Shown here: positions 2,205-22,424 of the stretch, one piece after another
Numbering within the stretch: position 1 is the first letter of the stretch
How the letters are laid out: every line of letters begins with the position of its first letter
Assembly (NCBI GenBank): GCA_036322835.1
Contig: AP027304.1
Span: 3,162,001-3,226,000, forward strand
Length of the DNA stretch: 64,000 bases
Reading direction: 5' to 3'
Origin: Tenuifilaceae bacterium CYCD
GTDB lineage: Bacteria > Bacteroidota > Bacteroidia > Bacteroidales > Tenuifilaceae
Made by a program: the position numbers and the translations under genes
The notes under the pieces: model-generated
Database searches by the model: none
The model's input: the letters and a program-made list of their open reading frames with translations, nothing else
Told to the model about the DNA's origin: nothing

Positions 2205-2819
2205 TTAGTTGGAATTTTTTATACAGCGTACATATCGTCCGGAATACTCCGAAGCATGCTTGTATGCAGCAATAGTTCCATCATCATAGAAAATCCATTC
2301 CCCTCCCGGAAAATCAACCCAAAAGTAAATATGCTCTCCAATGCTTGTAAAACAACATTTAGAGCCACTTTCGCCTCCGGGTAGCATGTTGAATCCAAAT
2401 TCGTTAGTGCCGTTTAATCCTTTTGGCCAGCCTTCGGTGGAGCGTAACCTAAAGGATATTGCAGGCTTATTTTTTCGACTACCCCAATCGGCTTGCTGTG
2501 CCTCGTTAATGCCAATAAACAGTTCAAGGGTTTTCCAATCGGCTTCAGTTGGCAGATGCCATCCATCGGGACAACCCTTTTGCGCCGTTTTAAAGTTGTA
2601 GAGATAACCATACTTTTTAGCGTTCTTCTTGTTATTGTCGTATGCCCAACAACCATCGTCGGTTTTGTAAGCAAGATTCTCGGCAAACCATTCCTGTTCG
2701 CCAATTTTTACGGTTTTATACTCTTTGTTATCACGGGGATCAATAAAAGTTCCCATTTCTTGCGAAAATCCTATACTTGCTAAAGTCATCAAAAGGATGA
2801 AAATTGATATTTTTCTCAT
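2205..2819 (-). CDS. Exported FISUMP-domain (Fibrobacter major paralogous domain) protein
   Basis: 204 aa with a signal peptide (MRKISIFILLMTLASIGFSQ). The mature part has the features of the Fibrobacter succinogenes major paralogous domain: DPRDNKEYKTVKIGEQEWF, ENLAY, then KYGYLYNFKTA, CPDGWHLPTEADW and a C-terminal GRYVRCIKN. These domains are C-type-lectin-like modules of surface proteins in Bacteroidota and Fibrobacterota; their ligand is unknown. Three Cys residues could form disulfides after export. It follows a beta-barrel-like gene by 20 nt, so the two probably form an operon ended by the terminator at 2147-2177. Confidence 0.85.
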   Translation of the reverse strand: MRKISIFILLMTLASIGFSQEMGTFIDPRDNKEYKTVKIGEQEWFAENLAYKTDDGCWAYDNNKKNAKKYGYLYNFKTAQKGCPDGWHLPTEADWKTLELFIGINEAQQADWGSRKNKPAISFRLRSTEGWPKGLNGTNEFGFNMLPGGESGSKCCFTSIGEHIYFWVDFPGGEWIFYDDGTIAAYKHASEYSGRYVRCIKNSN

Positions 2820-2839: not shown

Positions 2840-3847
2840 TTAATTGATAATTATACTTAGAAACCACATGTTCTTATCGGGCTGGTTGCCAAATGAGCTT
2901 TGCATGATATACTTGTTCTGGTACGAGAAGACTATTTTATACCGATCAACCTTGAAGTCTAACCCAGCTCTCCAACCAAACCCTTCGGTTTTATGATAGT
3001 TGAAGCCCAGTACATACCAGAATGCCGATTCAATTTGGATGTAGGAGTTATCGTTGTTTTTTATTTGCTCCTTAAACGTTTGGCCTGAGGTTTCATCTAC
3101 GCTAAACGATTTACCAACTCTAATTTTAGCATAGTACCCATCACTATTACCGCCCATAGGATCCTTAAAGATGTATCGGAAATCGTAACCTCCATCGTAG
3201 TCGTAACCGTAAGGTGCTTTTACCCTATCGGCATAAACATCGTTTTTAATTTTCAGGTAGCGGAAACCAAACTTTAAACCTGCACGAGCCAGCGACTTAA
3301 AATCGGGAGAGGGGAGGACGTTTCCTGAAAGGAAAAATTTCTTGAAGGGATAATCGAAGTATAGAAATGGACTAATAGAGTAACCTCCATCCTTTTCCCA
3401 GTATGTGGTATCGGGCATTTCAATAAACTTTGGGTTATAGCCATAACGGAACATTCCTCCAGCGTATACTTTAATTTGTTTTGTGTAAAGGCTGAAGCCA
3501 AGGGAAACTAAATGACCAACCATATCCGATTCAGGAAAACCATTTACTGGTCGTTTGTAGAGCATATAGCCATAGTTCCAGTTAAACCGTTTTTTCCACT
3601 TTTGCTCGGCAATCACAGCAAAACCTCCATATTTTTTCTGGAGCATGTAGCCTTCAATTCCTGTTTTATTCCGTTGTCCGTATTTATCGGCAAGATCGGT
3701 GGTTCCCTCATCGGCAGGTGGAGCATCAACAATTACCTTACGGAAAAAACGATCAAAGTAAACATCGTTTATATAAAGTTCGTTCTGCGCTTTAGACATG
3801 GTTGCAAACCAGACTAAAGGTATAATTGTTAGTAGTATCTTTTTCAT
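2840..3847 (-). CDS. Exported hypothetical protein, probably outer-membrane beta-barrel
   Basis: 335 aa. Signal peptide MKKILLTIIPLVWFATMSKA followed by Q. The mature sequence alternates aromatic/hydrophobic and polar residues in strands (FNWNYGYMLYKR, YAGGMFRYGY, AGLKFGFRYL, AGLDFKVDRYKIVFSYQNKY) and ends in a hydrophobic strand, MWFLSIIIN, as outer-membrane barrels do. No enzyme motif is seen. It is 20 nt upstream of the FISUMP gene. I do not recognise the family; a type IX-like C-terminal domain is not evident. Confidence 0.65.
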   Translation of the reverse strand: MKKILLTIIPLVWFATMSKAQNELYINDVYFDRFFRKVIVDAPPADEGTTDLADKYGQRNKTGIEGYMLQKKYGGFAVIAEQKWKKRFNWNYGYMLYKRPVNGFPESDMVGHLVSLGFSLYTKQIKVYAGGMFRYGYNPKFIEMPDTTYWEKDGGYSISPFLYFDYPFKKFFLSGNVLPSPDFKSLARAGLKFGFRYLKIKNDVYADRVKAPYGYDYDGGYDFRYIFKDPMGGNSDGYYAKIRVGKSFSVDETSGQTFKEQIKNNDNSYIQIESAFWYVLGFNYHKTEGFGWRAGLDFKVDRYKIVFSYQNKYIMQSSFGNQPDKNMWFLSIIIN

Positions 3848-3917: not shown

Positions 3918-5588
3918 TTATTCTCCCAGAGCAACTTTAGCCAGCCAGATATTCTTGTTGTCCTCATCGCTGCCAACAAATACAAGTTCCTTGTCATGAA
4001 CAATAATTGGAACAACAGGATGTAAAAAGTAGTCGTCTTTCTGCTCCTTACTGGTTTTTAAGCCGTAGGTTGTAAATTCGCTAAGAGTCTTTGCGGTTGG
4101 ATCGATGGTGGCCAAACGAACGTAGTTATATTTTCGGCCCGATTCCTTATTAACTTTTTTGGGTTCTATAATCAACCATGTAATAGTTTTACCGCCGGGG
4201 TTATCGTACAGTTGAACTTCGCCGGCTTCGGGCGATTCGTTTTTCACGGTGTAATGGGTTATGAGGTTTCCTTTAGAGTCGAAGTGGAGGAACATATAGT
4301 CGAGATTCTTTCCGCGGTACTGGTACTGTCCAACAAGTATGATGTCTCCATTATCCCTGATGCGTAATTGTGTGTTTTGAACATCGAAAACCTCGCCATC
4401 GAATCCTTTCTTCTGCGATTCGGGTTTAACCATTTTTGCGGTATAATCGGCCGCGGGAGTTGCTGTGATAAAATCCATCTTTCCATTGGTAATTTTCATA
4501 ATTACCATTTGATCCTTTTTGTCCTTTAGGTCGAAATAGTATTTCTGAAGGTTTTCGTTTGAACCAGAACCTGCTAGGTATAGCGATTCGTCCTTAAATT
4601 CGAAAAATGTAGGAGTCCAAGCTATAACTGGGCAAACAAAATCTATGCTATCGATTGTTTTTCCGTCTACGCCAAAACGCATATAGGTGTACTCGTTGGC
4701 CTTATAAAGGATTGACTGGTCGAAACCCAGCTGCGAAACCCTGTTCTTGGGAGCAAAAAGAACACCCATAGACCCATCGGGGTACTGTAATTTCTGAACG
4801 ATTCCTTTTGGCCCTCTGAATGAAAAGGAGCGTTCGCTTACCAAGTTCAAACCGTTCTTTACGCTATATGTTTTAATGGTGTATTCCTGATCATCAACAA
4901 TTTTGGTTCCTTTCGTTTTTTGAACTTTCGGCTGAACCGATCCCATAATTGTTAAGTAGTTCTGGGGGGCAAGGGTTTTAAAAGTTCCCTGCTCCCAGCT
5001 CCAGAATCCAACCTTTTTAAAGTCGTTAGGCTCATCGGCAATGGCAAACTGAGTGGCAATTCTACGATCGTCCGATTTTACCTTCACCTCGCTCCCCGTG
5101 CTGTAGGATAACTCCCATAGGTAATCGCCAACAGCATCGCTCCATTTTTCCTTGGCGATTAAAGTACCTTGTTCTATCTTTGTGTTGAGAAGTCCACCTC
5201 CAGCAATTACTTTGTAAGAAGATGATTTAACCTCTCTTGTTTTGCGGTTTGGATCGTACTTGGTCTTCGAACTGGTGCTGGCAATTGTCTTTATTGCAAT
5301 AGCAATCGATTCCTCCTCGGTAAATTCCTCCGATTTTTGGCTTGCTAAATTTAGGTTTGAGTCAAAGATATATGTATCCACAATGGTTTTGCCTTTGCCT
5401 TTAGGAGTTATAAATTGGGCTTGATACGCACTACCATCGTCATTGTAGCCAAAAGTCCACTGCTTTGCTTTCAGCGATGTTTTTACTAGCGGAGTAACTG
5501 TACTTGTTACAAGTTTTTGAGATATTGCAGATTTTCCAAGCAATACAAGTGCAATAATGCTTAAGAATGATATTGTAAGACGTTTCAT
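3918..5588 (-). CDS. Exported hypothetical protein, 556 aa
   Basis: The signal peptide is MKRLTISFLSIIALVLLG...AISQ. The rest is rich in short beta-strands with aspartate-containing turns (DPNRKTREV, GSDEDNKNIWLAK at the C-terminus), suggesting a propeller-like or all-beta fold, but WD40 or Kelch signatures are not clear. There are no catalytic motifs and no membrane segments beyond the signal. It probably acts in the periplasm or at the surface. It stands alone: 70 nt before the next minus-strand gene, with a palindrome in that gap, and a terminator from another transcript upstream. Function unknown. Confidence 0.7.
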   Translation of the reverse strand: MKRLTISFLSIIALVLLGKSAISQKLVTSTVTPLVKTSLKAKQWTFGYNDDGSAYQAQFITPKGKGKTIVDTYIFDSNLNLASQKSEEFTEEESIAIAIKTIASTSSKTKYDPNRKTREVKSSSYKVIAGGGLLNTKIEQGTLIAKEKWSDAVGDYLWELSYSTGSEVKVKSDDRRIATQFAIADEPNDFKKVGFWSWEQGTFKTLAPQNYLTIMGSVQPKVQKTKGTKIVDDQEYTIKTYSVKNGLNLVSERSFSFRGPKGIVQKLQYPDGSMGVLFAPKNRVSQLGFDQSILYKANEYTYMRFGVDGKTIDSIDFVCPVIAWTPTFFEFKDESLYLAGSGSNENLQKYYFDLKDKKDQMVIMKITNGKMDFITATPAADYTAKMVKPESQKKGFDGEVFDVQNTQLRIRDNGDIILVGQYQYRGKNLDYMFLHFDSKGNLITHYTVKNESPEAGEVQLYDNPGGKTITWLIIEPKKVNKESGRKYNYVRLATIDPTAKTLSEFTTYGLKTSKEQKDDYFLHPVVPIIVHDKELVFVGSDEDNKNIWLAKVALGE

Positions 5589-5649: not shown

Positions 5650-5691
5650 AAAAAAGAGGATGCCCTACAAGGGTTTCTGTAAGACACCCTC
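5650..5691 (-). terminator. Strong Rho-independent terminator
   Basis: On the minus strand, bases 5691-5678 pair with 5669-5656 in a continuous 14-bp stem with three G-T wobbles. The loop is 8 nt, followed directly by six T (5655-5650). It starts 6 nt after the stop of the small frame 5697-5891, so it ends either that gene's transcript or the kinase/regulator transcript further upstream. Confidence 0.85.
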
Positions 5692-6004: not shown

Positions 6005-6652
6005 TTATAAATTAACCAGATTGTTGCGGAGCGCGAATTTTATAAGGCTGATAATGGTTTTGCACTTGGTCTTTTCGTAGATATGTTGCCGATGGGTATC
6101 AACAGTACGTTTACTGATAAACAACTTCTCAGCAATCTGCTCGCTCGATAGTTCTTCGCATATAAGCTGAAGTATTTCCAGTTCCCGCTCGGTTAGGTTG
6201 TGTGTTTCCTCCTCGGTTCGCTTATCTTTTTTAACCTTTATCATTAAATTGGTAAGCACCTCGCGGCTGTAGAAAGTACCATCATCGGCTATGCTTGTAA
6301 GGGCTGCCACAAGTTCCTTTTTACCAGTATTCTTAAGGATAAAGCCCTCGGCTTCGCTCATAAGAATTTCGTTGGCCACATCCTGATCGTTGTACATAGT
6401 TAGCACCAGTATCTTGATTTGCGGGTACTCCTTTTTCACAGTTCGGGTCAATTCTGTTCCGCTCATGCCGGGCATACTTATGTCGGTAATCATAATATCG
6501 ATGGGAGTATTTTTAATCTTCTCCAATGCTATACTACCATCAAGCGCTTCGTCCACAATTTTAAATCTCTTTTCGTTGCGCAGCAACGCTTTTATCCCAT
6601 CAATAAACATTTGATGGTCGTCAACTAAAAACAGCCTTACGGGTTCATTCAT
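6005..6652 (-). CDS. LuxR/NarL-type response regulator
   Basis: 215 aa. Receiver domain at residues 1-125 with the acidic pair D11-D12, the phospho-acceptor D57 in MITDISMPG, and the KNTGKKEL region carrying the conserved Lys. A LuxR-type helix-turn-helix spans about 148-210 (LTERELEILQLI, SSEQIAEKLFISKRTVDTH). It binds DNA as a phosphorylated dimer. The gene overlaps the upstream sensor kinase by 8 nt, so the two are translationally coupled and form a pair. Because the kinase in turn follows a caspase gene by only 6 nt, the regulator is likely made with that protease and may control the locus or an envelope response. Confidence 0.95.
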   Translation of the reverse strand: MNEPVRLFLVDDHQMFIDGIKALLRNEKRFKIVDEALDGSIALEKIKNTPIDIMITDISMPGMSGTELTRTVKKEYPQIKILVLTMYNDQDVANEILMSEAEGFILKNTGKKELVAALTSIADDGTFYSREVLTNLMIKVKKDKRTEEETHNLTERELEILQLICEELSSEQIAEKLFISKRTVDTHRQHIYEKTKCKTIISLIKFALRNNLVNL

Positions 6653-8444
6653 GTTTTAGAGGTATTTCAATGTTAATGGTAGTGCCTGATTGCTTGCCGG
6701 GAACAATTTGGCTATTGCCATTTAATATGGATATTCGGTTAAAAATATTGTTCCAGCCTATCCCGGTTGTTTCATTGAGTTTTGATAAATCAAAACTTTT
6801 GCCATCGTTTATGATATTTAAACTGATACTCTCATCATCATTGATTAACGAAATATTAATGAATGAAGCATCGGCATGCTTAAGTATATTGTTGATAATT
6901 TCCTGTATTATCCGGTAAACTGAATGCTCTATATTATTGGCAAACCGACCTGAAAGGTTTATGTTGGTCGTTATTTGTACTTTACCGGTTTGGTTGATTT
7001 GTCGGGCAATTTCTTCAATAGCTGCTTGTAAACCAAATTTTTCAAGCGAAACAGGCATTAGGTTGTGCGAAATTTGCCTGACTTCAACCACCGACTGATC
7101 AACTAACTGTAAGGCATTATCCAGTAAGAATTTATCCTCAGGAATGATATTCTCCTCTAAACTGGCTAAATTAATGCGTGCGGTGGAAAGTATTTGTCCA
7201 AGGCCATCGTGAAGTTCACGGGCAAAACGGGTTCGTTCTTTTTCCTCAGTTTCAATTAAGGCAATTAAATGTTTATGTTTTTCAAAGGATAATTTTTCCT
7301 GAAGTTTTAACTCTTGCTTGTGTTTGAAACGGGTATAGAACAGTAGAAAACTTAGAATAATTAAAACGGTCAATGTCAATAGCATTAAGAGCTGAATCGA
7401 TCGGTTTTTTAATTTTACGTGCTGTTGTTCTATTTTTTTCTCCTTTTCAACCGTTTCGAATTTAATTTGCAGATTAGCAATGGTTTTATTGGTCTCGATA
7501 TTTATTAAGCTATCCTGTAATTGCTTGTGTTTTTTGTAATGTTTAAGGGCTAATTGGGGTTGGTGCTCATGTTCGAAGCATTCCGAAAGTTTTAGATTCA
7601 TATCACTTTTTAAATAGAGATAATTCAGCGAATCGGCTTTTTGTAATGCAGTTAAAAAAAAGGAAATGGCTTTTTTATAATTTTTAGTATACTGATAAAA
7701 ATCGCCGTACTGACTATAGCATTCAGCCAATCCCATCTGATCATTTATTTCAAGTCGGATCTGCCGTGCAGAATCGAGGAATAGAAGTGCAGAATCGAAT
7801 TTATTCGAAAGCATGTATGAGATTGAAATGTTGTTTAAAGTATACGGTAGGCCATGTTTGTTGTTTAGTTGCTGTTTTAATTTGAGTGCTTTTTTATAAT
7901 AGGAAACCGAACTATCGAGCTGGTTACTCATTTCGAAAAGCACCCCATAATTATCATATATTTTTGCTAGTTGCTCTTTGTTTCCTGTAGTTATTAAAAT
8001 CTCAACACCATGCTGCATTAGCCTAAAGGCTTTTTGCAAATCGAAGCGTTTTGTACGATATCCTATTTCACCGTACATTTTCCCTAATTTCTCAGGGATG
8101 TTAAGATGATCATAAATATTTAATGCCCTGAATCCGGTCTCAAAACTTTTATCATATCTACCGCTCATATAGTAAGCCAGGCTTAGCTGCTCAAGTATTT
8201 GAGCAAGTTCTATGCTATTTTGCTCGCTTTCAATAAGATTCACCTGTTTTTCCAGTAATGGAATAAACCTATCGGTGTTTTCAACTAAATCTTCATATTT
8301 TATGTTAATCAAAAAGTTAACTTGTTCATTTGAAGTTAAGTTATTGAAAACTGTTGCAACCGAATCAATATTATTTGCCAGAACAACAAAATGGTAGCAG
8401 AGAAATAATCCCAGCAATAAAAATCTTTTTCTAAATAAAGACAT
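6645..8444 (-). CDS. TPR-containing sensor histidine kinase (HisKA_3 type)
   Basis: 599 aa. An N-terminal signal/anchor (residues 5-23) is followed by an exported region of TPR helices (about 75-320; for example QLSLAYYMSGRYDKSFE and YDNYGVLFEMSNQLDSSVSY). A membrane helix lies at about 350-371. The cytoplasmic part has the HisKA_3 phospho-acceptor H412 in FARELHDGLGQ, then a GHKL ATPase domain with N-box IIQEIINNILKHA and G-box TGIGWNNI. The TPR region probably senses a periplasmic protein or peptide. The start lies 6 nt after the stop of the WD40-caspase gene, and the 3' end overlaps the response regulator, so protease, sensor and regulator are probably one transcript. Confidence 0.95.
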   Translation of the reverse strand: MSLFRKRFLLLGLFLCYHFVVLANNIDSVATVFNNLTSNEQVNFLINIKYEDLVENTDRFIPLLEKQVNLIESEQNSIELAQILEQLSLAYYMSGRYDKSFETGFRALNIYDHLNIPEKLGKMYGEIGYRTKRFDLQKAFRLMQHGVEILITTGNKEQLAKIYDNYGVLFEMSNQLDSSVSYYKKALKLKQQLNNKHGLPYTLNNISISYMLSNKFDSALLFLDSARQIRLEINDQMGLAECYSQYGDFYQYTKNYKKAISFFLTALQKADSLNYLYLKSDMNLKLSECFEHEHQPQLALKHYKKHKQLQDSLINIETNKTIANLQIKFETVEKEKKIEQQHVKLKNRSIQLLMLLTLTVLIILSFLLFYTRFKHKQELKLQEKLSFEKHKHLIALIETEEKERTRFARELHDGLGQILSTARINLASLEENIIPEDKFLLDNALQLVDQSVVEVRQISHNLMPVSLEKFGLQAAIEEIARQINQTGKVQITTNINLSGRFANNIEHSVYRIIQEIINNILKHADASFINISLINDDESISLNIINDGKSFDLSKLNETTGIGWNNIFNRISILNGNSQIVPGKQSGTTINIEIPLKHE

Positions 8445-8450
8445 CTGTAA

Positions 8451-11400
8451 CTATTTTACTGTAAACCCAAACTTCTGATAAATATTATCTCTATCAACCG
8501 TTGGGTGCTGCAAATCTCCACTGGCTTTTGCTACCTGCTCGCTTACGTATTGGCGGAGCTCATCGGTTGAGACAGTTCCGTTATTATCCTTATCCGCTTC
8601 TGTTGTGGTAAGGGCTTTTATAATGTACTCGGTGAAAAGCCCGTTTTCAATGTCGCTGCGCTCATAGCTAAGTTCACCACCCTTGGAACTGGAGAATACA
8701 ATGGCTCCGCTTCGGCGGACAAGGTCGTTGTAGATGTAGCGGTCCTTCTGGTAAAGGTAGCTTCGCTTGGTTGTTGGTTGTTGGTTGTTCGCTGATTGGG
8801 AAGAGGTGGTTTTGAAGCCGCGGGAGGCGATTCCCAAACCTTTCAGGTTTTCAAAACCTGAAAGGTTTTCATAGGTTTCATCATCAATCTCGCCCGACTC
8901 GCAGGCATCCATCAGGAATAGCTTGTTACGCGGTGGAATTCCCTGAAGCAAATCCTCTATAGTTTCAAAGTCCGCCGCTGTGGCTTTAAGGTTGTTCACA
9001 TCGGCATTACTGGTTAAATAATAGTAGGTTGCCTCAGCATCCTTATCGTGCATACCATGGCCAGCGATGAAGAGAATGAAAGTATCATCTGGTTTGGCAT
9101 TTTTCACGAAATCCTTTGATGCTTTGATTGCTTCGGGGGTTACCTGCTCATTCGTGAGAGTTTTGGTGTAGACATTTTCGAAGCCTTTGCCTTTGAGATT
9201 TTGAATGGTTTTCTCCAGGTCAAGAGCATCCTTGTGGGCATATGCTAGGTTATATGACGTATTTTGATACTTTGATACACCAAAAGCCAAGAAATATATA
9301 TCTTTTTTTACAGGTTCACTGTTTATTAGCTTTATTTGATCCCTATAACTTTCAACGCCTAAATTGTTGGTACAAGAAATCTCAACTTTATTTATCCCAG
9401 ATGATAAAACAACTGATTCTGAACCTTTATTCAAATTACCTTTTATAGATTTACCATAAATACCCCAAATTGGTACGTCATTGATAAATATTGAATATGA
9501 CTTTAACTCATGTTTTGGATCAGAAACAGAAAAACTGATATCAGCGCTAACTCCTGTTTGCTTTATATCTGTTATTTTAGCAACCGGTACTTCAAGTTCT
9601 GTGAACGACCAATTATTATTCACCCCAAGTTTTCGAATACGCTTTTCATATTGCTTTTCATATTGTTTGACAATTTGAGCATCGTATGATGGTAGTTTTT
9701 TCATAATAAGGTCTGGGCGATTTGTGTTTGTTGCAAATTGGTCGATTCCCCACAGATTCATGCCTTGAACCATATTAACTATATTTGTAGCATTTATTGA
9801 ACCATCCCAGTAGCCATCAGAATTGTACACTAGCCAGGTTCCAATTTCACTGTTATAATAAAATGCAGTCCATGAGCCATCATCAATATTCCATAATCTA
9901 GCAGTACCATCAGAATCCGTTGATAAAACATATTTATCGTTATAGGCAAAATTTGCTGATGAAAAAAAGCCAGCATTGCCTTCTAATACTTTAATTGTTT
10001 GATTGGTGGCTAAATCCCAAATTCTAATTTTAGAATCGTTCAATAATGAGAGAGCTAAAGTCCCTTTAGAATTTATTGATAATAAGCCAACCCATGGTGA
10101 GCCTTCTAATGGCTTTTCCTTATTTTTATCGCCAACCCTCTCTACATATGTATCAGAGGAATGTTCAAAGTTTATTGTTGTTTTAGTCGTTGAAATATAA
10201 AACTTTTGGGGCCTATGTGTGGGCATCAGTATATAATCTTCCTCCTTGAATTTTGTTTTACCCTCAGGCTCTCCTTTCCCTAAATAATCGAAACTAAAAT
10301 TATCATACCCTTTTTTGGAAATTAACCATTTTTTATCAGGCGTTATCGCATAGTAATCCCATTCATCACCCTTGTACAGGTTATTTAGTTCAATTGGGCG
10401 GCATTGTCTTAAATCCCAGAATATTAATTGTCTTGATCCATTAACCATAAAAAAAGTATCTGTTGTTGGAATAAAGTAAGCGTTAGAAACGCTACTTATT
10501 TTTCCTGTAAAATACTGGATTGGCTCAGCGGTATTAATATCCCAAAGGGTTGGTATTTTATCACTACTTCCTATCAGTACGTTTTTACTGTCGGGGGACA
10601 AGGCTATTTCGCATTCAAATTTCTCTTGTTTTATCTTCTTTACTAATTCTTTAGAATCTACATTCCATAGGTAAATATTGGAATTATTACCTGATCCAAC
10701 TCCGGCAATCAATAGTTTGTCATCATTGGAAAAAGCAAGTCGGAATGCTGAAGAGTTCTTTAGGGGATAATTATATATTTCCTTTTTAGTTTGTACTTCC
10801 CATATCCGCATTGCATCATCTTTACCTGCTGAAGCTACAAATTTCCCATTATGCGATAGCGAAACACAATAGACTAAGCCGGAATGAACAAGTGTTGCAA
10901 TGTTTTTCTGCTTTTCAATATCCCACAGCTTAATATCGTTATTCCAACGAGCACATGTAGCCATTGTTTTGCCATCCTGCGAAATACTGATATCAAGTAT
11001 TCCGTTTAAAGACTGACCCTCATTATGCATTTTCTTCATTGTAAACAATACTTGCCCTGTAGCAATGTCGAAACGCTGCACCACATTGCAATTTGCCGAA
11101 CCCGCTAAAAAAGTTTTACCGTCTGGGAAAATTTTAATTGCAGATATTCCATGCTCTTTACCTTTCTCAAAACTATCAAATGTTTTTATCACTTTACCTG
11201 TTGATAAGTCATACATTATCATTTGCTTATCACGAGATCCAGTAATTACATATTTTCCATCGGGGGTAATATCCATGGCAGTTACCCATGATTTATGCCC
11301 AACAAATGAACGTAATAGTTTACCACTAGCTATATCCCACAATTTTACGGTTTGATCGTTAGAAGCGGTTAAAACATACTTCCCTTCTGGAAGAAATGCG

Positions 11401-11540
11401 ACTCTTTCAATTCCACCAATATGGCCAATCTGAATGTTTAAATCGGGTTTTAAATTAGAGTTTAACTGGGCTTTAACATGGTTTATTGGTATCATATAAA
11501 CCACAACAAATAAAAACAAAAAAGTAACTTTAGTTTTCAT
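8451..11540 (-). CDS. Exported WD40-propeller/caspase-domain (C14) protease, copy 1
   Basis: 1029 aa. Signal peptide at 1-24 (ending HVKA). Degenerate WD40 repeats follow to about residue 590 (FLPEGKYVLTASNDQTVKLWD and others), then a linker with NSDGYWDGS and IDQFATNTNRPD shared by all three paralogues, and an Ig-like segment. The C14 domain begins near 755. The catalytic dyad is intact: H828 in FIAGHG and C880 in LMDACESGE. The Asp two residues before the Cys is the metacaspase-type pattern linked to Arg/Lys specificity (inference). An EF-hand-like loop, DKDNNGTVSTDE, occupies 983-994 in the p10 part. The p20-p10 linker is encoded by a palindrome and heptad repeats. It is 6 nt upstream of a sensor kinase gene. 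Confidence 0.93.
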   Translation of the reverse strand: MKTKVTFLFLFVVVYMIPINHVKAQLNSNLKPDLNIQIGHIGGIERVAFLPEGKYVLTASNDQTVKLWDIASGKLLRSFVGHKSWVTAMDITPDGKYVITGSRDKQMIMYDLSTGKVIKTFDSFEKGKEHGISAIKIFPDGKTFLAGSANCNVVQRFDIATGQVLFTMKKMHNEGQSLNGILDISISQDGKTMATCARWNNDIKLWDIEKQKNIATLVHSGLVYCVSLSHNGKFVASAGKDDAMRIWEVQTKKEIYNYPLKNSSAFRLAFSNDDKLLIAGVGSGNNSNIYLWNVDSKELVKKIKQEKFECEIALSPDSKNVLIGSSDKIPTLWDINTAEPIQYFTGKISSVSNAYFIPTTDTFFMVNGSRQLIFWDLRQCRPIELNNLYKGDEWDYYAITPDKKWLISKKGYDNFSFDYLGKGEPEGKTKFKEEDYILMPTHRPQKFYISTTKTTINFEHSSDTYVERVGDKNKEKPLEGSPWVGLLSINSKGTLALSLLNDSKIRIWDLATNQTIKVLEGNAGFFSSANFAYNDKYVLSTDSDGTARLWNIDDGSWTAFYYNSEIGTWLVYNSDGYWDGSINATNIVNMVQGMNLWGIDQFATNTNRPDLIMKKLPSYDAQIVKQYEKQYEKRIRKLGVNNNWSFTELEVPVAKITDIKQTGVSADISFSVSDPKHELKSYSIFINDVPIWGIYGKSIKGNLNKGSESVVLSSGINKVEISCTNNLGVESYRDQIKLINSEPVKKDIYFLAFGVSKYQNTSYNLAYAHKDALDLEKTIQNLKGKGFENVYTKTLTNEQVTPEAIKASKDFVKNAKPDDTFILFIAGHGMHDKDAEATYYYLTSNADVNNLKATAADFETIEDLLQGIPPRNKLFLMDACESGEIDDETYENLSGFENLKGLGIASRGFKTTSSQSANNQQPTTKRSYLYQKDRYIYNDLVRRSGAIVFSSSKGGELSYERSDIENGLFTEYIIKALTTTEADKDNNGTVSTDELRQYVSEQVAKASGDLQHPTVDRDNIYQKFGFTVK
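8768..8795. repeat. Four heptad repeats inside caspase copy 1
   Basis: Plus-strand units TGGTTGT, TGGTTGT, TGGTTGT, TCGCTGA. They encode the Ser/Asn/Gln/Thr-rich part of the linker between the p20 and p10 parts. Four heptads also occur at the matching place in the other two caspase genes. Confidence 0.8.
8836..8868. repeat. Perfect palindrome inside caspase copy 1
   Basis: A perfect 16-bp inverted repeat (AAACCTTTCAGGTTTT and its complement) around a single C at 8852. It is read in frame as ENLSGFENLKGL in the caspase linker. The same palindrome is in copy 3 at 22805-22837 but absent from copy 2. Confidence 0.9.
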
Positions 11541-11608: not shown

Positions 11609-14600
11609 TCATTTTACTCCAAACCCAAACTTTTGGTAAATATTATCCCTATCCACAGTGGGGTGCTGCAAGTCACCGCTAGCCTTAGCCACCTGTGCAC
11701 TCACGTACTCGCGGAGCTCATCGGTTGAAACGATTCCATTTCCATCTTTGTCAGCTTCGGTTGTTGTAAGGGCTTTCATAATGTATTCAGTGAAGAGTCC
11801 GTTCTCAATATCGCTACGTTCGTAGCTTAACTCACCACCCTTTGAAGACGAGAACACGATTGCGCCGCTTCGACGGACAAGATCGTTGTAGATGTAGCGA
11901 TCTTTCTGGTATAAGTAGCATCGCTTCGTTGACGGTTGAGAGTTGACGGTTGATGGGGAAGAGGTGGTTTTGAAGCCACGGGAAGCAATGCCAACGCCTG
12001 TTGCAGTAGCTATCATCTGCCCTTGATCCTCCTCGTCAATCTCCCCCGATTCGCAGGCATCCATAAGGAAGAGCTTATTGCGGGGAGGAATCCCTTGTAA
12101 CAAGTCTTCGATAGTCTCAAAATCGGCTGCGGTGCCTTTTAGGTTGTTAATATCGGCATTGCTGGTAAGATAGAAGTATGTAGCATCCTTATCGTTATCG
12201 TGCGTTCCGTGACCTGCAATAAATAGAACAAAAGTGTCATCGGGTTTAGCATCTTTCAAAAAGTCTTTGGTTCCCTTAATCGTTTCGGGTGTAACATCTT
12301 CGTTTAGGTAAGTTTTCGAATAAACATTAGCATAATGTCCACTGGTTTTCATTTTCTCAAAAACATCAGATAAATCCTTGGCATCTTTATCGGCATACTG
12401 CAGGTTTAATTCTGCGTTTTTGTACTTCGATACGCCAAAACCTATGTAGTAAAGATTTGGCTTAACGGGAGAGGCGGGTTGATAACTAGCGGAAGTAAGT
12501 GCTCTGAATGACTCGGCTCCGTATTCGTTCATTGCAGAAACTTCTATCTTATTATCACCAGAAATAAGTTCAATGGTTTCAGTAAGAGCCAGTGATCTTA
12601 AATCAATGTTTGCAGTTCCAGAAAGATCTTTCCCATAAGTTCCAAATATTGGAACATCATTAACAAATATATTGTAACGGGTTACCTTTGCAGTTTTACT
12701 CGTTATGGTAAAATCGACATTTACATTCTTGCCCGATTGAACTGTTTTTGTAATCTTTGTTTCTGGAGTTTCGTAGTCTTTCGAAAGTTTATCCTCTGTA
12801 AGGTTTAGTTTTTTTAATCGTTTAAGGTATTGATTGTAATAATGTTTTATTAATTCAGGATCTACTTTTGTAATTTTTCCCAATATTTTATCGGGACGGT
12901 TGTTCTTTATAGCAAACTGATCGATATTCCATACCTCCATTCCATGAACCATTGCAACAAGGTCGCCTCCATTTGGAGAGGCATCCCAGAAGTTTTCGTT
13001 ATTGAATACAAGCCATTTAGTATCTTGATTGTTAGAGTTGGCAATTGAAGTATAGATTATTTCGCCGCTTGCCACATCCCAAAACTTGAGAGAATTATCA
13101 GCAGAGCCTGAAAGGATCGTTTTCCCATCGGGTGAAAAACAAACAGAATAAACACAGTTTGTATGTCCTGTAAACGTTCTCATAGAAGTCTTCGCTGAAA
13201 TATCCCAAAGTTTAATACTGTTATCCGAACTTCCTGAAAGAGCATACTTACCATCGGGTGAAAAACAAACGGAATTAATTAAGTCAGAATGCTCTGAAAA
13301 AGACCTTAATTCTTTTCCACTGGAAACATCCCAAAGTCTCATTGCATAATCATATCTTTTAGATGCTGAAGATCCAGCCTCAAAACCTCCTGAAAGAGCA
13401 TACTTACCATCTGGTGAAAAACATACAGTCCAGAACCTTGCGTGAGGAATCTTTGAAAAGGTTCTGACTTCTTCACCTGTGGATATATCCCAAAGGATAA
13501 TATTACTTTCACCTGTTAATACATATTTCCCATCAGGAGAAAATACTACGGAGTTTATACCATTACTATAACCTGAAAACGTTCTGATCTCTTTACCTGC
13601 GGAAAGGTCCCATAATTTTATTGTTTTATCCTCGCTTCCTGAAATAGCCATCCTCCCGTCAGGAGAAAATGCTACGGAATTAACTATTCCGGAATGTCCA
13701 GAAAAAGTTTTAATCTCATTTCCTGTGGCAATATCCCAAAGTTTTAAATTGCCATCAATGCTTCCTGAAAGAGCATAGTTGCCATCGGGAGAAAAGCAGA
13801 TAGATTTAACCCATTTTGAATGCCCTTGAAAAGTTTTAACTACTTTACCTGACGAAACCTCTAGTAAATTAAAAGAGTTACCAATCCCTGAAAGAGCATA
13901 TTTACCATCGGGAGAAAAACAAGCAGAAACAACAGCCATAGAGTTCTCTGAAAATATTTTAGCATCCTTTCCTGATGTAATATTCCAATATTTTAGAGTG
14001 TTATCACCACTTGATAGAGCATATTTACCATCAGGTGAAAAACACACAGATGAAGCAAATCTGGAATACCCAGGAAAAGACATGACCTCTTTTCCAGATG
14101 AGATATTCCAAAGTATTACTTTCTTATCTTCACTTCCCGAAAGAGCGTATTTACCATCCGGGGATAAACTAACTGTATTTATTTCATCTGAATTCACTGA
14201 AAATGTTTTAACCTTTTTTCCTTTTACAACATCCCAAAGTTTTAACGTTTTATCTCGACTCCCTGAAAGGGCATATTTCCCATCAGAAGAAAAACAAACA
14301 GAGGATACAGCACCTTCATGCCCTGTAAAAGTTTTTATCGATATTCCTGTTGCAATATTCCAAAGTATTATGGTTTTATCTTCACTTCCCGAAAGAGCAT
14401 ATTTACCATCGGGGGAAAAACAGACCGAATTAACATAATCGGTATGCCCAGACAAGTATTTGAATACCTCTCCAGTTGAAACATTCCAAAGTTGTATTTT
14501 GCTATCAAAGCCTCCCGACAGAGCATATTCTCCATTTGGGGAAAAGCTGACTGTATAAACGGATTTATTGATTCCAGAAAAAACTCTGATTTTTTCCCCG

Positions 14601-14917
14601 GTTAGTATATCCCAAAGTATTATGGTTTTATCAGAACTTCCGGATAGAGCATATTTCCCATCAGGGGAGAAGCACACACAATTAACAATATCCGAATGCC
14701 CAAGGAAAGTTCTAACCACTTTCCCTGTTGCCATATCCCAAAGTTTTAACGTTTTATCCTGACTCCCCGAAAGAGCATATTTCCCATCAGGGGATAAACA
14801 TGCTGCGTTAATATTTTGAGAATGACCTGCGTTTACGGTTAATACTGGTTGTTGAGCAAATGTAGTTGCCGAACTAAACAGTATGAAAATCAAATATACG
14901 TTAATGAATCTTCGCAT
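11609..14917 (-). CDS. Exported 14-repeat WD40/caspase-domain (C14) protease, copy 2
   Basis: 1102 aa. Signal peptide MRRFINVYLIFILFSSATTFA. Fourteen consecutive, very regular WD40 repeats (SPDGKYALSGSxDKTIxLWD) fill about residues 25-620, enough for two seven-bladed propellers. The shared linker (IDQFAIKNNRPD) and an Ig-like region follow. The C14 domain carries H903 in FIAGHG and C955 in LMDACESGE. An EF-hand-like loop, DKDGNGIVSTDE, spans 1056-1067. The p20-p10 linker (EEDQGQMIATATGVG) lacks the palindrome seen in copies 1 and 3. The gene ends 68 nt before copy 1. The propellers probably bind a partner and hold or gate the protease; substrate unknown. Alignment to metacaspases supports basic P1 specificity only as inference. 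Confidence 0.95.
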   Translation of the reverse strand: MRRFINVYLIFILFSSATTFAQQPVLTVNAGHSQNINAACLSPDGKYALSGSQDKTLKLWDMATGKVVRTFLGHSDIVNCVCFSPDGKYALSGSSDKTIILWDILTGEKIRVFSGINKSVYTVSFSPNGEYALSGGFDSKIQLWNVSTGEVFKYLSGHTDYVNSVCFSPDGKYALSGSEDKTIILWNIATGISIKTFTGHEGAVSSVCFSSDGKYALSGSRDKTLKLWDVVKGKKVKTFSVNSDEINTVSLSPDGKYALSGSEDKKVILWNISSGKEVMSFPGYSRFASSVCFSPDGKYALSSGDNTLKYWNITSGKDAKIFSENSMAVVSACFSPDGKYALSGIGNSFNLLEVSSGKVVKTFQGHSKWVKSICFSPDGNYALSGSIDGNLKLWDIATGNEIKTFSGHSGIVNSVAFSPDGRMAISGSEDKTIKLWDLSAGKEIRTFSGYSNGINSVVFSPDGKYVLTGESNIILWDISTGEEVRTFSKIPHARFWTVCFSPDGKYALSGGFEAGSSASKRYDYAMRLWDVSSGKELRSFSEHSDLINSVCFSPDGKYALSGSSDNSIKLWDISAKTSMRTFTGHTNCVYSVCFSPDGKTILSGSADNSLKFWDVASGEIIYTSIANSNNQDTKWLVFNNENFWDASPNGGDLVAMVHGMEVWNIDQFAIKNNRPDKILGKITKVDPELIKHYYNQYLKRLKKLNLTEDKLSKDYETPETKITKTVQSGKNVNVDFTITSKTAKVTRYNIFVNDVPIFGTYGKDLSGTANIDLRSLALTETIELISGDNKIEVSAMNEYGAESFRALTSASYQPASPVKPNLYYIGFGVSKYKNAELNLQYADKDAKDLSDVFEKMKTSGHYANVYSKTYLNEDVTPETIKGTKDFLKDAKPDDTFVLFIAGHGTHDNDKDATYFYLTSNADINNLKGTAADFETIEDLLQGIPPRNKLFLMDACESGEIDEEDQGQMIATATGVGIASRGFKTTSSPSTVNSQPSTKRCYLYQKDRYIYNDLVRRSGAIVFSSSKGGELSYERSDIENGLFTEYIMKALTTTEADKDGNGIVSTDELREYVSAQVAKASGDLQHPTVDRDNIYQKFGFGVK
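11926..11953. repeat. Four heptad repeats inside caspase copy 2
   Basis: Plus-strand units TCGTTGA, CGGTTGA, GAGTTGA, CGGTTGA, in the same linker position as the heptads in copies 1 and 3 but with a different unit sequence. They encode the Ser/Thr/Asn-rich linker before TKRCYLYQK. Confidence 0.8.
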
Positions 14918-15193: not shown

Positions 15194-18100
15194 CTACATC
15201 CCATAGTACACAAACGGAGCCCAGTAGAATGGCTGGTTGTATTGCCCCTTAATAAAAGTTCGTTTCACCTGATTGATGGCCTTTGAAATGGGCATCTTCT
15301 CAACAAACACCAAGCGGTAAAACTCCTTCTGGAATTCCATGGTCGATTGGTCGGATACTTTCCATAGCGAAACGGCAATGGAGTTTGCTCCTGCCAGTAG
15401 AAACGATTGGGTAAGCCCAACAACTCCTTCACCTCCATAAATTTTACCTAGCCCTGTTTCACATGCGGATAGGTTCACGAAGTCGGCGTTCAGGTTTAGC
15501 TTTGCAATCTCAGAGGCTCTGAGGTAACCATCGTCATTTGGCAAACCCTGTGAAAGCACTAAAGCGGATAGGTCTTGATATTCAGGGATTACAATACCAT
15601 GCGTAGCAAAGTGAAGTATCTTATATCCCTTTAGCTGACCATTAGCCGACATCCCCTTTACGCTTTGCTCGTTTACATCCTTGCCTTTTATGCAAACCGA
15701 ATTTGGAACAAGACCAGATATGGCATCAAGTTCAGCGAGAGTACCCGATAGATTTTCCCATGCAATACCTAAAGCATCGTAATACCTCTTCATGCTCACA
15801 CCGTCCTTGGAGTCAGTCTCAACGCCCTTCATCATCTCATTAAACTGTTCCTGTGATTGGGTTTGCTGGGTTTGAGCATTGGGTACATCATAAACAGCAT
15901 TTCCGAAAGCCAATAATGGTTTACGATTATCTGAATACTTTCGATTAGCCAGCTCATTCCCGACAGAGAGCGAGGGAAGGTATCGGATATCATACTTCTC
16001 AACCAGATAACGTCCATCGGGCATAATAAAAGCCTCGTAGGGAAGGAACGCTAGTAAATCGTTGGGAATAATGACAAGCTCTTTTTTACCTACCAGTTTA
16101 TCCTCAACCGGAAGAATTAGTAACTCATAGAATTTTTTGCCAAGAAAATCGATTGTTTCTTTTTCTGCTGGAGTTTTTATAGGTTTTGAAAGTAACGAGC
16201 GGTAATTGTTCGCTATTTTTTCAATCTCTCTTTTGGTTCTATCCCAATTTTCTTGTTGGGGCTGGTTTACTGCCAATTCAGTGTTAGGTGGGTTCTGTAT
16301 CCGTTTAAACGCTCGAAGCTTTTCAAACGAGCTTATATCGGAGATGCTGTACCGATCCTTTACCGATTTAACCCATATATCATCGTTTACTCCAATTCCA
16401 TCAATCGAATTGGCATCGGTTAAAATGGTTGTTAGCTTATTCCCGATATTCCCAAAACATAGTATGGCCTGTTCCTGAGGAATGTTTTTTTGCCATTGGG
16501 TTGGGTCAACAAATAGATTACTGTTTTTCCCTGCTTTACTGGCAATCCTTTCAAGAAGCAACCGAGCCGTCGATTTTTCGATAGAGTTAAATGCCCCTTG
16601 GTAGTCCTGCATTGATAGCTGGCATCGGATTATGTTCTGGTAATTTACGTATTGTCCAGACCAATAATTTAACTTCAGGTCATCTGGAACAAGAGCTCTT
16701 TCCTTCTCCCTACGGTCAATTATGCTTAAATAAAAAGGAATTGCCTGGGTATAATCATCGTTTAAATCGTAAGTAAGGCCTATCCATTTCTCAAAATTGT
16801 CGATATAAACATCATCATTAATATCCTTTGCTATTGAATAACCTTCTTTTAAGAAATCGAGTGATTTTTGCCTGCTTTGAGAAACTTCAGCCCTTCCCAA
16901 AGAGAAAAGAGCGACCATTTTCTTTTTCGGATTATTAATTTCATTGGCTAGATTTAACGCTTGTTGAGCCCAGCTAATCGATTCAGCATATTTTCCAATC
17001 CACATATAGCAAACTCCTAATTTCCCATAACAATCCACAAGCTTTTCCTTATCATCTAACTCCTTATAAATCGGGATTATTCGAAGTACATAATCTATTG
17101 CATTTTGGTTCTGTTGTATTTCAGCGTAGCAACAGGCAATATTCCATTGCACAAGCGCAGCATAACTTTTATAATCCAACTCTTCATAAATTTTTTGCGC
17201 TTTTTTATAATATTCTATGGCTTTAATGGTATTACTCAAGTCTGCATATATTGTACCTAAATGAGTTGCAATTAATGCTTTTGTAAAAGGATCATCGTTT
17301 AGTGCATCGGCCTGATTATAGTAATCGATTGCTTTAGCAAATTCTTTTAACTTTTGATAATTACTACCTATTTGAGCAATCAGCTCCGCCTGTACATTTT
17401 TTGAAAGCTTACCGGTGAGATTCTTTAAGTCTTTTTGCAACTGATCAATGGCAAAACTTGATTTGCCCATGTTTTCATATATTATTGAGAGATATTTTGC
17501 AATTTGCCCTTTTTGATCTGGTTGATCCGAAACGATAGCCGCCTGATTATAATACTCAATTGCTTTAGCATTATCTTTCAAACCAACATCATATATAGCA
17601 GCTAGCTTTATAAGCAAATCGGCTTCCTGCGTTTTGGATATTTTACCAGTGAGTTTTTTTAACGCTTTTTGCAAATACTCAATAGCTGCGCTTGGATTGC
17701 TCATATTTTGATATGCTTCAGCAATTTGCTGAGCAACAAAAACATTTTGATCGGGCAGGTCGGTTGCAACATCAGCCTGACTGTAATAATCAATTGCTTT
17801 GCTCGAATTATCGAGAAAATAAAAATAAATATTTCCTAGCTGAGCGAGTATGTTGAATTTCTGATTTGGCCCGCGTTTACTATCAGGATACGCTAATGCT
17901 TGATTACAGTATTCAATGGAAATGGAAGGATCTTTTCCTGCCCTAATGCCACTACTGATTAAAGACAGTAGAGTTCCCCTTACATAGTATGAATCATCAA
18001 GTTTTTGGCTATAAGGAAGTGCCTTTTCAAAGCATAAGAATGCGTTAGCGTGGTCCTTCTTTAAAGAATAAATATTACCTTTTACAGACCATTCATAGTA

Positions 18101-18403
18101 TAGTGCATGGGAATTACCCGAAGATTCAGCCATCTCGGTAATTTTATCAACGAACTTCTCCGCTTCATCTAGTTGACCTAAATTCATCAAGCAAAAAGCA
18201 ATCTGTCCATTTGCCGATGCGATAAGCCCTTTATCATTCTCCTTCTCCGCTATTGCAATAGCCTGCTTTGCAAGTTCAATACAATATTTGTTATCGCTTG
18301 AATCTTCAGCTTTTATAAGCAGTTCAAGCGCTGTTTGGGCTGAAAGGTTGAAAGTAAAAGTAATTACGAAAAGCAGAATCGGGATAATCCTTAAATACTT
18401 CAT
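15194..18403 (-). CDS. Exported TPR-CHAT protease
   Basis: 1069 aa. Signal peptide MKYLRIIPILLFVITFTFNLSA. About a dozen TPR units cover residues 25-600 (KAIEYYNQA, KAIDYYNQADA, NLGQLDEAEKF). The CHAT domain (caspase-like, HetF-associated with TPRs) occupies about 740-1069, with dyad residues H935 in ILHFATHG and C981 in LSACETGLG, then GVVGLTQSFLLAGANSIAVS. CHAT proteins are cysteine proteases of the caspase clan; the best-known one partners the type III-E CRISPR effector. There is no CRISPR machinery here and this copy has a signal peptide, so it should work in the envelope. It lies between caspase copy 2 and the MORN gene, all on one strand. Substrate unknown. Confidence 0.95.
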   Translation of the reverse strand: MKYLRIIPILLFVITFTFNLSAQTALELLIKAEDSSDNKYCIELAKQAIAIAEKENDKGLIASANGQIAFCLMNLGQLDEAEKFVDKITEMAESSGNSHALYYEWSVKGNIYSLKKDHANAFLCFEKALPYSQKLDDSYYVRGTLLSLISSGIRAGKDPSISIEYCNQALAYPDSKRGPNQKFNILAQLGNIYFYFLDNSSKAIDYYSQADVATDLPDQNVFVAQQIAEAYQNMSNPSAAIEYLQKALKKLTGKISKTQEADLLIKLAAIYDVGLKDNAKAIEYYNQAAIVSDQPDQKGQIAKYLSIIYENMGKSSFAIDQLQKDLKNLTGKLSKNVQAELIAQIGSNYQKLKEFAKAIDYYNQADALNDDPFTKALIATHLGTIYADLSNTIKAIEYYKKAQKIYEELDYKSYAALVQWNIACCYAEIQQNQNAIDYVLRIIPIYKELDDKEKLVDCYGKLGVCYMWIGKYAESISWAQQALNLANEINNPKKKMVALFSLGRAEVSQSRQKSLDFLKEGYSIAKDINDDVYIDNFEKWIGLTYDLNDDYTQAIPFYLSIIDRREKERALVPDDLKLNYWSGQYVNYQNIIRCQLSMQDYQGAFNSIEKSTARLLLERIASKAGKNSNLFVDPTQWQKNIPQEQAILCFGNIGNKLTTILTDANSIDGIGVNDDIWVKSVKDRYSISDISSFEKLRAFKRIQNPPNTELAVNQPQQENWDRTKREIEKIANNYRSLLSKPIKTPAEKETIDFLGKKFYELLILPVEDKLVGKKELVIIPNDLLAFLPYEAFIMPDGRYLVEKYDIRYLPSLSVGNELANRKYSDNRKPLLAFGNAVYDVPNAQTQQTQSQEQFNEMMKGVETDSKDGVSMKRYYDALGIAWENLSGTLAELDAISGLVPNSVCIKGKDVNEQSVKGMSANGQLKGYKILHFATHGIVIPEYQDLSALVLSQGLPNDDGYLRASEIAKLNLNADFVNLSACETGLGKIYGGEGVVGLTQSFLLAGANSIAVSLWKVSDQSTMEFQKEFYRLVFVEKMPISKAINQVKRTFIKGQYNQPFYWAPFVYYGM

Positions 18404-18538: not shown

Positions 18539-19495
18539 TTATTCAGAAACAAAATCTCCGCGGTAGAACTTCCCAGTTTTGGTTGTTCCATCGGGGTAGG
18601 TCATGGTTCCTTTGCCAGTTGCCCATTCTTCGGCGGTATCCGAAACACCCACCCATTTTCGCCCATCGCGGAATAGAATAGTTTCATCCTTGGGCTGTCC
18701 ATTTTCGTAAACTCCCTCACGGTATAGGTATCCAGATCTTTTGGGTGCTTTAATAAGCATTTTACCATTCATCTTACTATCCTTGAATGTACCATAAATT
18801 ACCTCCCCGTTAGGTTTGAAAATAACGGTATTCCCGTTGTATTGACCATTAATATCTATAGAATCGTACTTAACAACCCCAAACTTACTTTCAAACACAA
18901 CCCCCTTTACCAAGCGGTTATCGCTGAAATCCCCTTCAATCCGGCTGCCATCAGTTTTCTGGTAAATGCCTTTCCCATTTGAGCAATCGCCCAATAAACA
19001 CCCAGTCTGACGTGTGATGGTAGTTTTCTGATCGTTCTTGTATAATACCGTTTGTACATCGTCAAACTGGTATCTCGTAAATTCTCCATCCTGAGCGGTG
19101 TTTTTAAAAGTTCCAACTTCGATTAGGTTGTTTGCATAGTAGTTGATGTTGCCGTACCCGTTGGGCTGATTGTTCTCGAAGTAACCGGTATATATAATAT
19201 TATCGCCAGCCATGTGAATTTGGCCCAATCCCTCTATAATCCCATTCTTGAAGTTGCCGATGTACTCTGTTTTACCATCCGCATCAATAAGATAGCCAAA
19301 TCCATAGAAACAGTCGCCAGCAAGGCAACCAGAAAGGGTCGTTCCAAGGGTTTTAACTGGTTTAGCAAACATAGAGATGGCACTTGCATCGATCTCTGGC
19401 TTTGGTACTGTTAGAACGACGGGTGATATAGGTTCTTGTGCATTTAAACTTATTGTTAAACCTAAAGCAATGAGAATTAAATATTGTTTTTTCAT
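18539..19495 (-). CDS. Exported MORN-repeat protein
   Basis: 318 aa with a signal peptide (MKKQYLILIALGLTISLNA). MORN-type repeats with YxGxFxxGxxxGxG spacing run from about 55 to 318 (TEYIGNFKNGIIEGLGQI, YTGYFENNQPNGYGNI, TKTGKFYRGDFVSE). Two copies of a Cys-containing variant, GCLAGDCFYGFG (C57 and C62) and GCLLGDCSNGKG, suggest disulfides after export. MORN repeats mediate protein or lipid contacts. It is closely related to the C-terminal third of the next upstream gene. Position between the CHAT and caspase genes suggests a partner or substrate of those proteases (inference). Confidence 0.9.
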   Translation of the reverse strand: MKKQYLILIALGLTISLNAQEPISPVVLTVPKPEIDASAISMFAKPVKTLGTTLSGCLAGDCFYGFGYLIDADGKTEYIGNFKNGIIEGLGQIHMAGDNIIYTGYFENNQPNGYGNINYYANNLIEVGTFKNTAQDGEFTRYQFDDVQTVLYKNDQKTTITRQTGCLLGDCSNGKGIYQKTDGSRIEGDFSDNRLVKGVVFESKFGVVKYDSIDINGQYNGNTVIFKPNGEVIYGTFKDSKMNGKMLIKAPKRSGYLYREGVYENGQPKDETILFRDGRKWVGVSDTAEEWATGKGTMTYPDGTTKTGKFYRGDFVSE

Positions 19496-22368: not shown

Positions 22369-22424
22369 GGCAAGCGGTAAGCGACAAGTTCTTTCTTGTC
22401 TCTTGTCGTTTATTACTTTTCACT
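22369..22424. repeat. Heptad tandem array at the 3' end of caspase copy 3
   Basis: Eight 7-nt units (GGCAAGC, GGTAAGC, GACAAGT, TCTTTCT, TGTCTCT, TGTCGTT, TATTACT, TTTCACT). The two halves are roughly complementary, giving a hairpin around CGACAAG/CTTGTCG. The last units overlap the stop codon of the caspase gene. It may help end transcription. Confidence 0.65.

Follow-up and report, generated by a model that had tools for sequence, protein, structure and literature searches.

FimS of Porphyromonas gingivalis is described as a periplasmic tetratricopeptide repeat (TPR) sensor kinase that activates the regulator FimR, with a polypeptide suggested as its ligand (PMC11053733). For WD40 metacaspases and orthocaspases, 28 copies are reported in Haliscomenobacter hydrossis, and 23 of 217 metacaspase operons are reported with signalling, sensor or regulatory domains (PMC3501461). 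Genes resembling both kinds stand next to each other in a stretch of 64,000 nucleotides (nt) of Tenuifilaceae bacterium CYCD (contig AP027304.1, positions 3,162,001 to 3,226,000; hereafter the window), where the list of open reading frames places a WD40-caspase gene (copy 1), a histidine kinase gene and a response regulator gene consecutively on the minus strand. Three direct observations, namely the geometry of this locus, its synteny with a genome (G012) that has no caspase at this place and a switch in the closest relative of the kinase at residues 396-401, probably reflect a resident FimS/FimR-type two-component system that lies under a lineage-specific caspase array and carries a TPR sensor half different from that of its G012 counterpart. 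The features concerned are the following.

8451..11540, minus strand: caspase copy 1, 1029 amino acids (aa), with a leader, WD40 repeats and a C-terminal Peptidase_C14 domain with a His/Cys dyad (Pfam, alignment)
8445..8450, minus strand: join between the caspase stop and the kinase ATG, 6 nt
7245..8444, minus strand: kinase sensor half, residues 1 to about 400, with leader, TPRs and the membrane segment from 352, nearest to G011
6645..7244, minus strand: kinase catalytic half, residues about 401-599, with HisKA_3 and HATPase_c, nearest to G012
6005..6652, minus strand: response regulator, 215 aa, receiver plus LuxR/GerE DNA-binding domain (Pfam Response_reg and GerE)
5656..5691, minus strand: terminator-like hairpin 3' of the regulator, a 15-pair stem followed by TTTTTT (terminator scan)

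The sequence-only reading had deduced from the spacing of these genes a single transcript, and had suggested a functional coupling in which the TPR-type sensor could detect cleaved products or the state of the exported protease. The spacing itself is exactly borne out by the open reading frame coordinates: the stop codon of caspase copy 1 (TAG) is followed by TTACAG (6 nt) and then by the ATG of the kinase, whose reading frame overlaps that of the regulator by 8 nt. A terminator at 8444-8460 had been named as a sign against co-transcription; the terminator scan of the join (8445-8450) revealed no terminator-like site, nor is there one in the 68 nt that separate caspase copy 2 from copy 1; downstream of the regulator there is a strong one. 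For these reasons a single transcript ending around 5656 would be the simplest reading, and the claim that copy 1, kinase and regulator share one transcript is retained as likely, given the spacing and the terminator-free join. Tight spacing by itself is not unusual here, gaps of 20 nt or less being present in 14 of the 35 co-directional neighbour pairs of the window (in a gene list chosen by hand from its open reading frames). The Bacteroidota-type promoter motif TAnnTTTG is absent from the 300 nt before the kinase start; across the 300-nt upstream stretches of all eight genes in the run its sole occurrence is TAGTTTTG, placed 47 nt before the start of caspase copy 3. Since 6 nt are too short for a promoter of their own, the kinase and the regulator would be transcribed either along with the caspase gene or from a promoter located within it.

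The kinase (6645-8444, minus strand, 599 aa) contains TPR_12, HisKA_3 and HATPase_c domains (Pfam), a hydrophobic leader and one strong membrane segment that starts at residue 352 and separates the TPR half from the H-box. This order of N-terminal TPR half, membrane segment, HisKA_3 and HATPase_c places it among the predicted FimS-like TPR histidine kinases, and on sequence grounds FimS of P. gingivalis is its nearest characterised relative, the NCBIfam FimS model NF053520 aligning to residues 7-549 of 599. Among solved structures the kinase matches the catalytic parts of VraS and DesK and TPRs of the G-protein-signaling-modulator type, and a contig scan with the kinase as query returned one weak relative, from Niastella soli (25%). 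The regulator, with Response_reg followed by GerE, is predicted to be of the NarL/FixJ type, and its residues 1-212 are 75% identical to those of the syntenic G012 regulator. The topology proposed earlier, with an exported caspase and a periplasmic TPR sensor, is plausible in view of the leaders on caspase copy 1 and the kinase and the single membrane segment.

Genomes were compared at the species level, with one genome per species. On contig C31 of G012 the kinase and the regulator are followed, in window order, by counterparts of three further genes, which in the window are as follows.

3918..5588, minus strand: exported protein of 556 aa, family unassigned, 74% identical to its syntenic G012 counterpart
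2840..3847, minus strand: protein of 335 aa, family unassigned, syntenic in G012
2205..2819, minus strand: Fib_succ_major-domain protein (Pfam); the G012 gene at the same position reads as the same protein

The G012 kinase is preceded by a divergent gene, which we take to be mnmA, and by no caspase. In the source genome mnmA sits elsewhere, which does not settle the direction of change. In another family, one contig (G194:C75, L165:1-8543) holds a distant relative of the 556-aa protein (24%, 284 columns) and a Fib_succ_major-like gene directly upstream of a WD40-caspase.

To judge from its two halves, the kinase is mosaic, drawing on two lineages: the TPR domain and the membrane segment were exchanged, and the catalytic core, the regulator and the genes that follow were kept. 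When compared with the kinases of G011:C157 and G012:C31, its best-matching relative switches near residue 400 (396-401), immediately ahead of the H-box. Up to the best split the window kinase matches G011 at 160 sites and G012 at 91, beyond it at 63 and 116 sites, respectively, and the split score was reached by none of 2000 shuffles. The G012 kinase is 21% identical to that of the window in the sensor half and 59% in the catalytic half, and G011:C157, at 40% in the former and 34% in the latter, is the only one of 40 homologues with the sensor half as its more similar part. The trees agree with this division. The catalytic-half tree joins the window with G012 (100/100) and rejects its union with G011 (approximately unbiased test, p-AU 0.003), and the sensor-half tree joins it with G011 (100/99) and rejects its union with G012 (p-AU 0.001); in this second tree G012 is found among long branches, and either genome may be the one that changed. 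No caspase was seen on the 9-kb contig of the G011:C157 kinase, which lies beside genes that presumably encode respiratory-complex subunits; thus, a sensor of this type does not need a caspase neighbour. The mosaic kinase is a clear natural case in which a sensor was exchanged without displacing the catalytic half, the regulator or the genes downstream.

Upstream of the kinase and in the same direction lie three WD40-caspases, one TPR-CHAT protein and two MORN proteins, of which those beyond copy 1 are listed here.

11609..14917, minus strand: caspase copy 2 (WD40 by Pfam, C14 by genome search)
15194..18403, minus strand: TPR-CHAT protein (Pfam)
18539..19495, minus strand: MORN-repeat protein
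19643..22279, minus strand: WD40 and MORN protein
22420..25752, minus strand: caspase copy 3 (genome C14 search, alignment)

Relatives of copy 1 at E<=1e-60 are confined to one of the 27 family genomes, the source genome itself, with 4 copies, and the nearest ones outside it belong to other families of the order (54-56% identical). Copy 1 begins with a hydrophobic leader and scores 70.9 bits with Peptidase_C14, the Pfam gathering cut-off being 21.4. The His of AGHG and the Cys of DACESG, which we take to be the catalytic residues of C14, are invariant in all six aligned sequences (all three copies of the window plus the three closest relatives from other genomes), so that by score and His/Cys pair copy 1 is a Peptidase C14 homologue and a predicted protease; no solved structure matches the caspase domain at E<=0.1. 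The C-terminal parts of the three copies share 64-70% protein identity, with a nonsynonymous divergence (dN) of 0.24-0.29 and a synonymous divergence (dS) of at least 1.5 (0.24 and 1.49 for copies 1 and 3). These values indicate purifying selection on the C14 domain and show that the copies are kept by selection. The homology among the copies ends at the stop codon, and the base composition of the caspase array gives no sign of a foreign origin.

The 3.92-Mb source genome holds 21 Peptidase_C14 matches, compared with 9 and 10 in two congeneric genomes and 0-13 in other family members, an expansion of caspases in the source lineage relative to its genus. CHAT-domain proteins stand near WD40-caspases in 8 of 40 loci of the order (L130, L137, L141, L144, L151, L153, L159 and L161), as they do in the window, and in one locus (L065:14799-19091, G000:C1:3134799-3139091) a protein with a GldN-like domain (gliding motility) is encoded 30 nt downstream of a WD40-caspase. 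An anti-phage defence caspase system was considered and set aside, the PADLOC-DB matches being weak or repeat-based in six proteins (caspase model: copy 1, 23.2 bits; copy 3, 26.8 bits); the leader sequences argue for export.

The caspase-kinase join was then followed from both sides. Starting from the signalling genes, 71 kinase/regulator loci with their flanks contain C14 solely in the locus of the window and in G164, with the upstream gene out of view in 3 of 40 homologous kinase loci, which begin at a contig edge (G192:C79, G292:C183, G154:C160). Two caspases, in G016:C35 and G005:C16, lie beside a related kinase but divergent from it, among other genes. Starting from the caspase, its C-terminal part gave 45 matches in the order, in 32 of 344 genomes, and all 41 matches outside the source genome were fetched, in 40 loci, of which G347 and G194 end at a contig edge. 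A kinase is the next co-directional gene in none of the 39 caspases with a visible downstream side outside the source genome, and the next gene in none of the 20 other caspases of the source genome, the next genes being identified by BLAST against the window kinase and regulator and later one HisKA kinase, a test that very divergent signalling proteins could escape. At C1:3289081 a PAS-HisKA-receiver protein is second downstream of a caspase, behind an alcohol dehydrogenase. Pfam was run on 10 next genes, 7 outside the source genome and 3 within, and revealed a propeller-SpoIIE sensor that the BLAST test had missed. The join is therefore not conserved at the species level, being absent in G012 and at all of these caspases, which is the outcome that the sequence-only reading had itself regarded as contrary to its proposal; the functional coupling of caspase and kinase is not supported. 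The locus appears to be an ordinary signalling pair in new genomic surroundings; the comparison speaks against an established unit and illustrates how far a gap of 6 nt can mislead.

Several observations weigh against the reading of a resident FimS/FimR-kind pair under a lineage-specific array. The syntenic block is present in only 2 of the 27 family genomes, so that a gain in the lineage is indistinguishable from a loss or replacement in G012, and the G012 assembly is 63% complete. The kinase does not reach FimS equivalog status, its 64.6 bits with NF053520 comparing with a cut-off of 600 bits. In G164:C4 (L129:6364-12344) a related kinase-regulator pair is convergent with a related WD40-caspase, the two being 145 nt apart. 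Finally, in the 27 family genomes HisKA_3 is found within 12.5 kb of C14 in 8 of 68 cases versus 3.1 expected, above a naive expectation that ignores contig ends and relatedness, with matches that are not independent. By the same measure the LytS-type control is slightly above its own expectation (8 of 140 versus 5.8), and within 3 kb the counts are 2 of 68 versus 0.7 for HisKA_3 and 2 of 140 versus 1.4 for the control. A systematic kinase-caspase neighbourhood was rejected as an explanation, with no clear association of HisKA_3 and C14 relative to this control. At G164:C4 an ankyrin-repeat gene directly abuts the start of the WD40-caspase.

The sensor revealed by Pfam belongs to a different locus of the source genome (L170:4657-9726), where a caspase of 615 aa (C1:383878-385725) ends 6 nt before a sensor of 1071 aa (C1:380656-383871) composed of a propeller (Reg_prop), Y_Y_Y, one membrane segment (hydropathy peak from residue 761) and a SpoIIE phosphatase domain (Pfam). 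Eight other family loci were picked by the same C14 profile span (3-224) and an open frame of 619-674 aa, a choice that favours orthologues, and a close relative of the caspase is present in all of them (72-86% identical). The same sensor lies downstream in the 7 picked loci with a visible gene (L197-L203; 58-82% identity across the propeller); the G011 contig extends just 18 nt beyond the stop codon of the caspase. The junction, compared within the family, is thus kept in 8 of 8 readable genomes including the source, in 4 genera, with a GTG exactly 6 nt after the caspase stop in every case and an ATG one codon earlier in G016 and G005. The SGHG and DACFSG motifs are invariant in the nine caspases of these loci, and 8 of the 9 loci have a divergent gene of 375-395 aa upstream of the caspase, with an AraC-type helix-turn-helix by Pfam in the copy of the source genome. 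By these comparisons the caspase and the propeller-SpoIIE phosphatase form a conserved caspase-sensor pair, at another locus and with another sensor than in the window, and this pair appears more promising as a caspase-sensor unit than the window join. Its junction, fixed across four genera, makes the question of a protease-to-sensor link directly testable. At G001:C203 (L210:4425-10767) another propeller-SpoIIE sensor lies 232 nt downstream of a different caspase; no such neighbour was seen for the corresponding caspases of G000 and G003.

With the resident pair under the array as the preferred reading, the periplasmic TPR half would bind a protein or peptide, the kinase would autophosphorylate on its HisKA_3 histidine and pass the phosphate to the LuxR-type regulator, and the phosphorylated regulator would control genes in trans. 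It is possible that caspase copy 1 or its products act as the kinase ligand. A wider proposal, which we consider doubtful, is that exported caspases have repeatedly been wired in this family to membrane sensors on the same transcript, the SpoIIE pair being old and the window join newer and independent, with a resident FimS-like system taking a new TPR half under the caspase array and a periplasmic caspase reporting to gene expression. The narrower view of a dedicated protease-receptor pair, in which the cell exports caspase copy 1 and the kinase, made from the same transcript, uses its TPR half to detect the protease or the fragments that the protease produces, would agree with the join geometry and the topology, with the intact His/Cys dyad and the purifying selection (copies 1 and 3), with the proposal that TPR sensors such as FimS bind polypeptides (PMC11053733), with a sensor half unlike that of G012, where no caspase stands, and with the stable joining of another caspase of the source genome to a membrane sensor; it is nevertheless unlikely, as the join occurs in no other examined genome and the nearest relative of the sensor half, G011:C157, is without a caspase on its contig. 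Improbable as well is that a dedicated promoter within the caspase reading frame drives the kinase and the regulator, with mostly separate transcripts and a meaningless nearness, for which the caspase 3' end offers several weak sigma-70-like minus-strand matches (55 in the region versus 50.1 in shuffles, standard deviation 8.2, hence not above them) and against which stand the missing TAnnTTTG and the terminator-free join. A caspase joined to a sensor would provide a testable output for bacterial caspases outside cyanobacteria and defence systems.

Compared with known systems, the window pair shares with FimS-FimR of P. gingivalis a predicted periplasmic TPR sensor, a membrane segment, a C-terminal kinase and a cognate transcriptional regulator. 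Unlike FimS-FimR, it has a caspase array upstream, and no fimbrial genes were recognised next to it. By likeness to that system, the window pair may sense a periplasmic protein or peptide and drive transcription through its regulator. Among publications considered by title and start of abstract, none was recognised as dealing with a caspase-FimS-like kinase pair or with a caspase-SpoIIE pair. The propeller-Y_Y_Y-SpoIIE pair resembles the window locus in having a membrane sensor directly 3' of the caspase after a 6-nt gap; it differs in its output, a phosphatase and not a histidine kinase, and in being conserved in the family, which the window join is not. In the passages of PMC3501461 considered no caspase-FimS-like kinase pair is named, and its main text contains neither 'histidine kinase' nor 'two-component'. 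With the prokaryotic WD40 metacaspases and orthocaspases, the caspases of the window share the combination of C14 and WD40 repeats, the N-terminal leader and the presence of multiple genomic copies.

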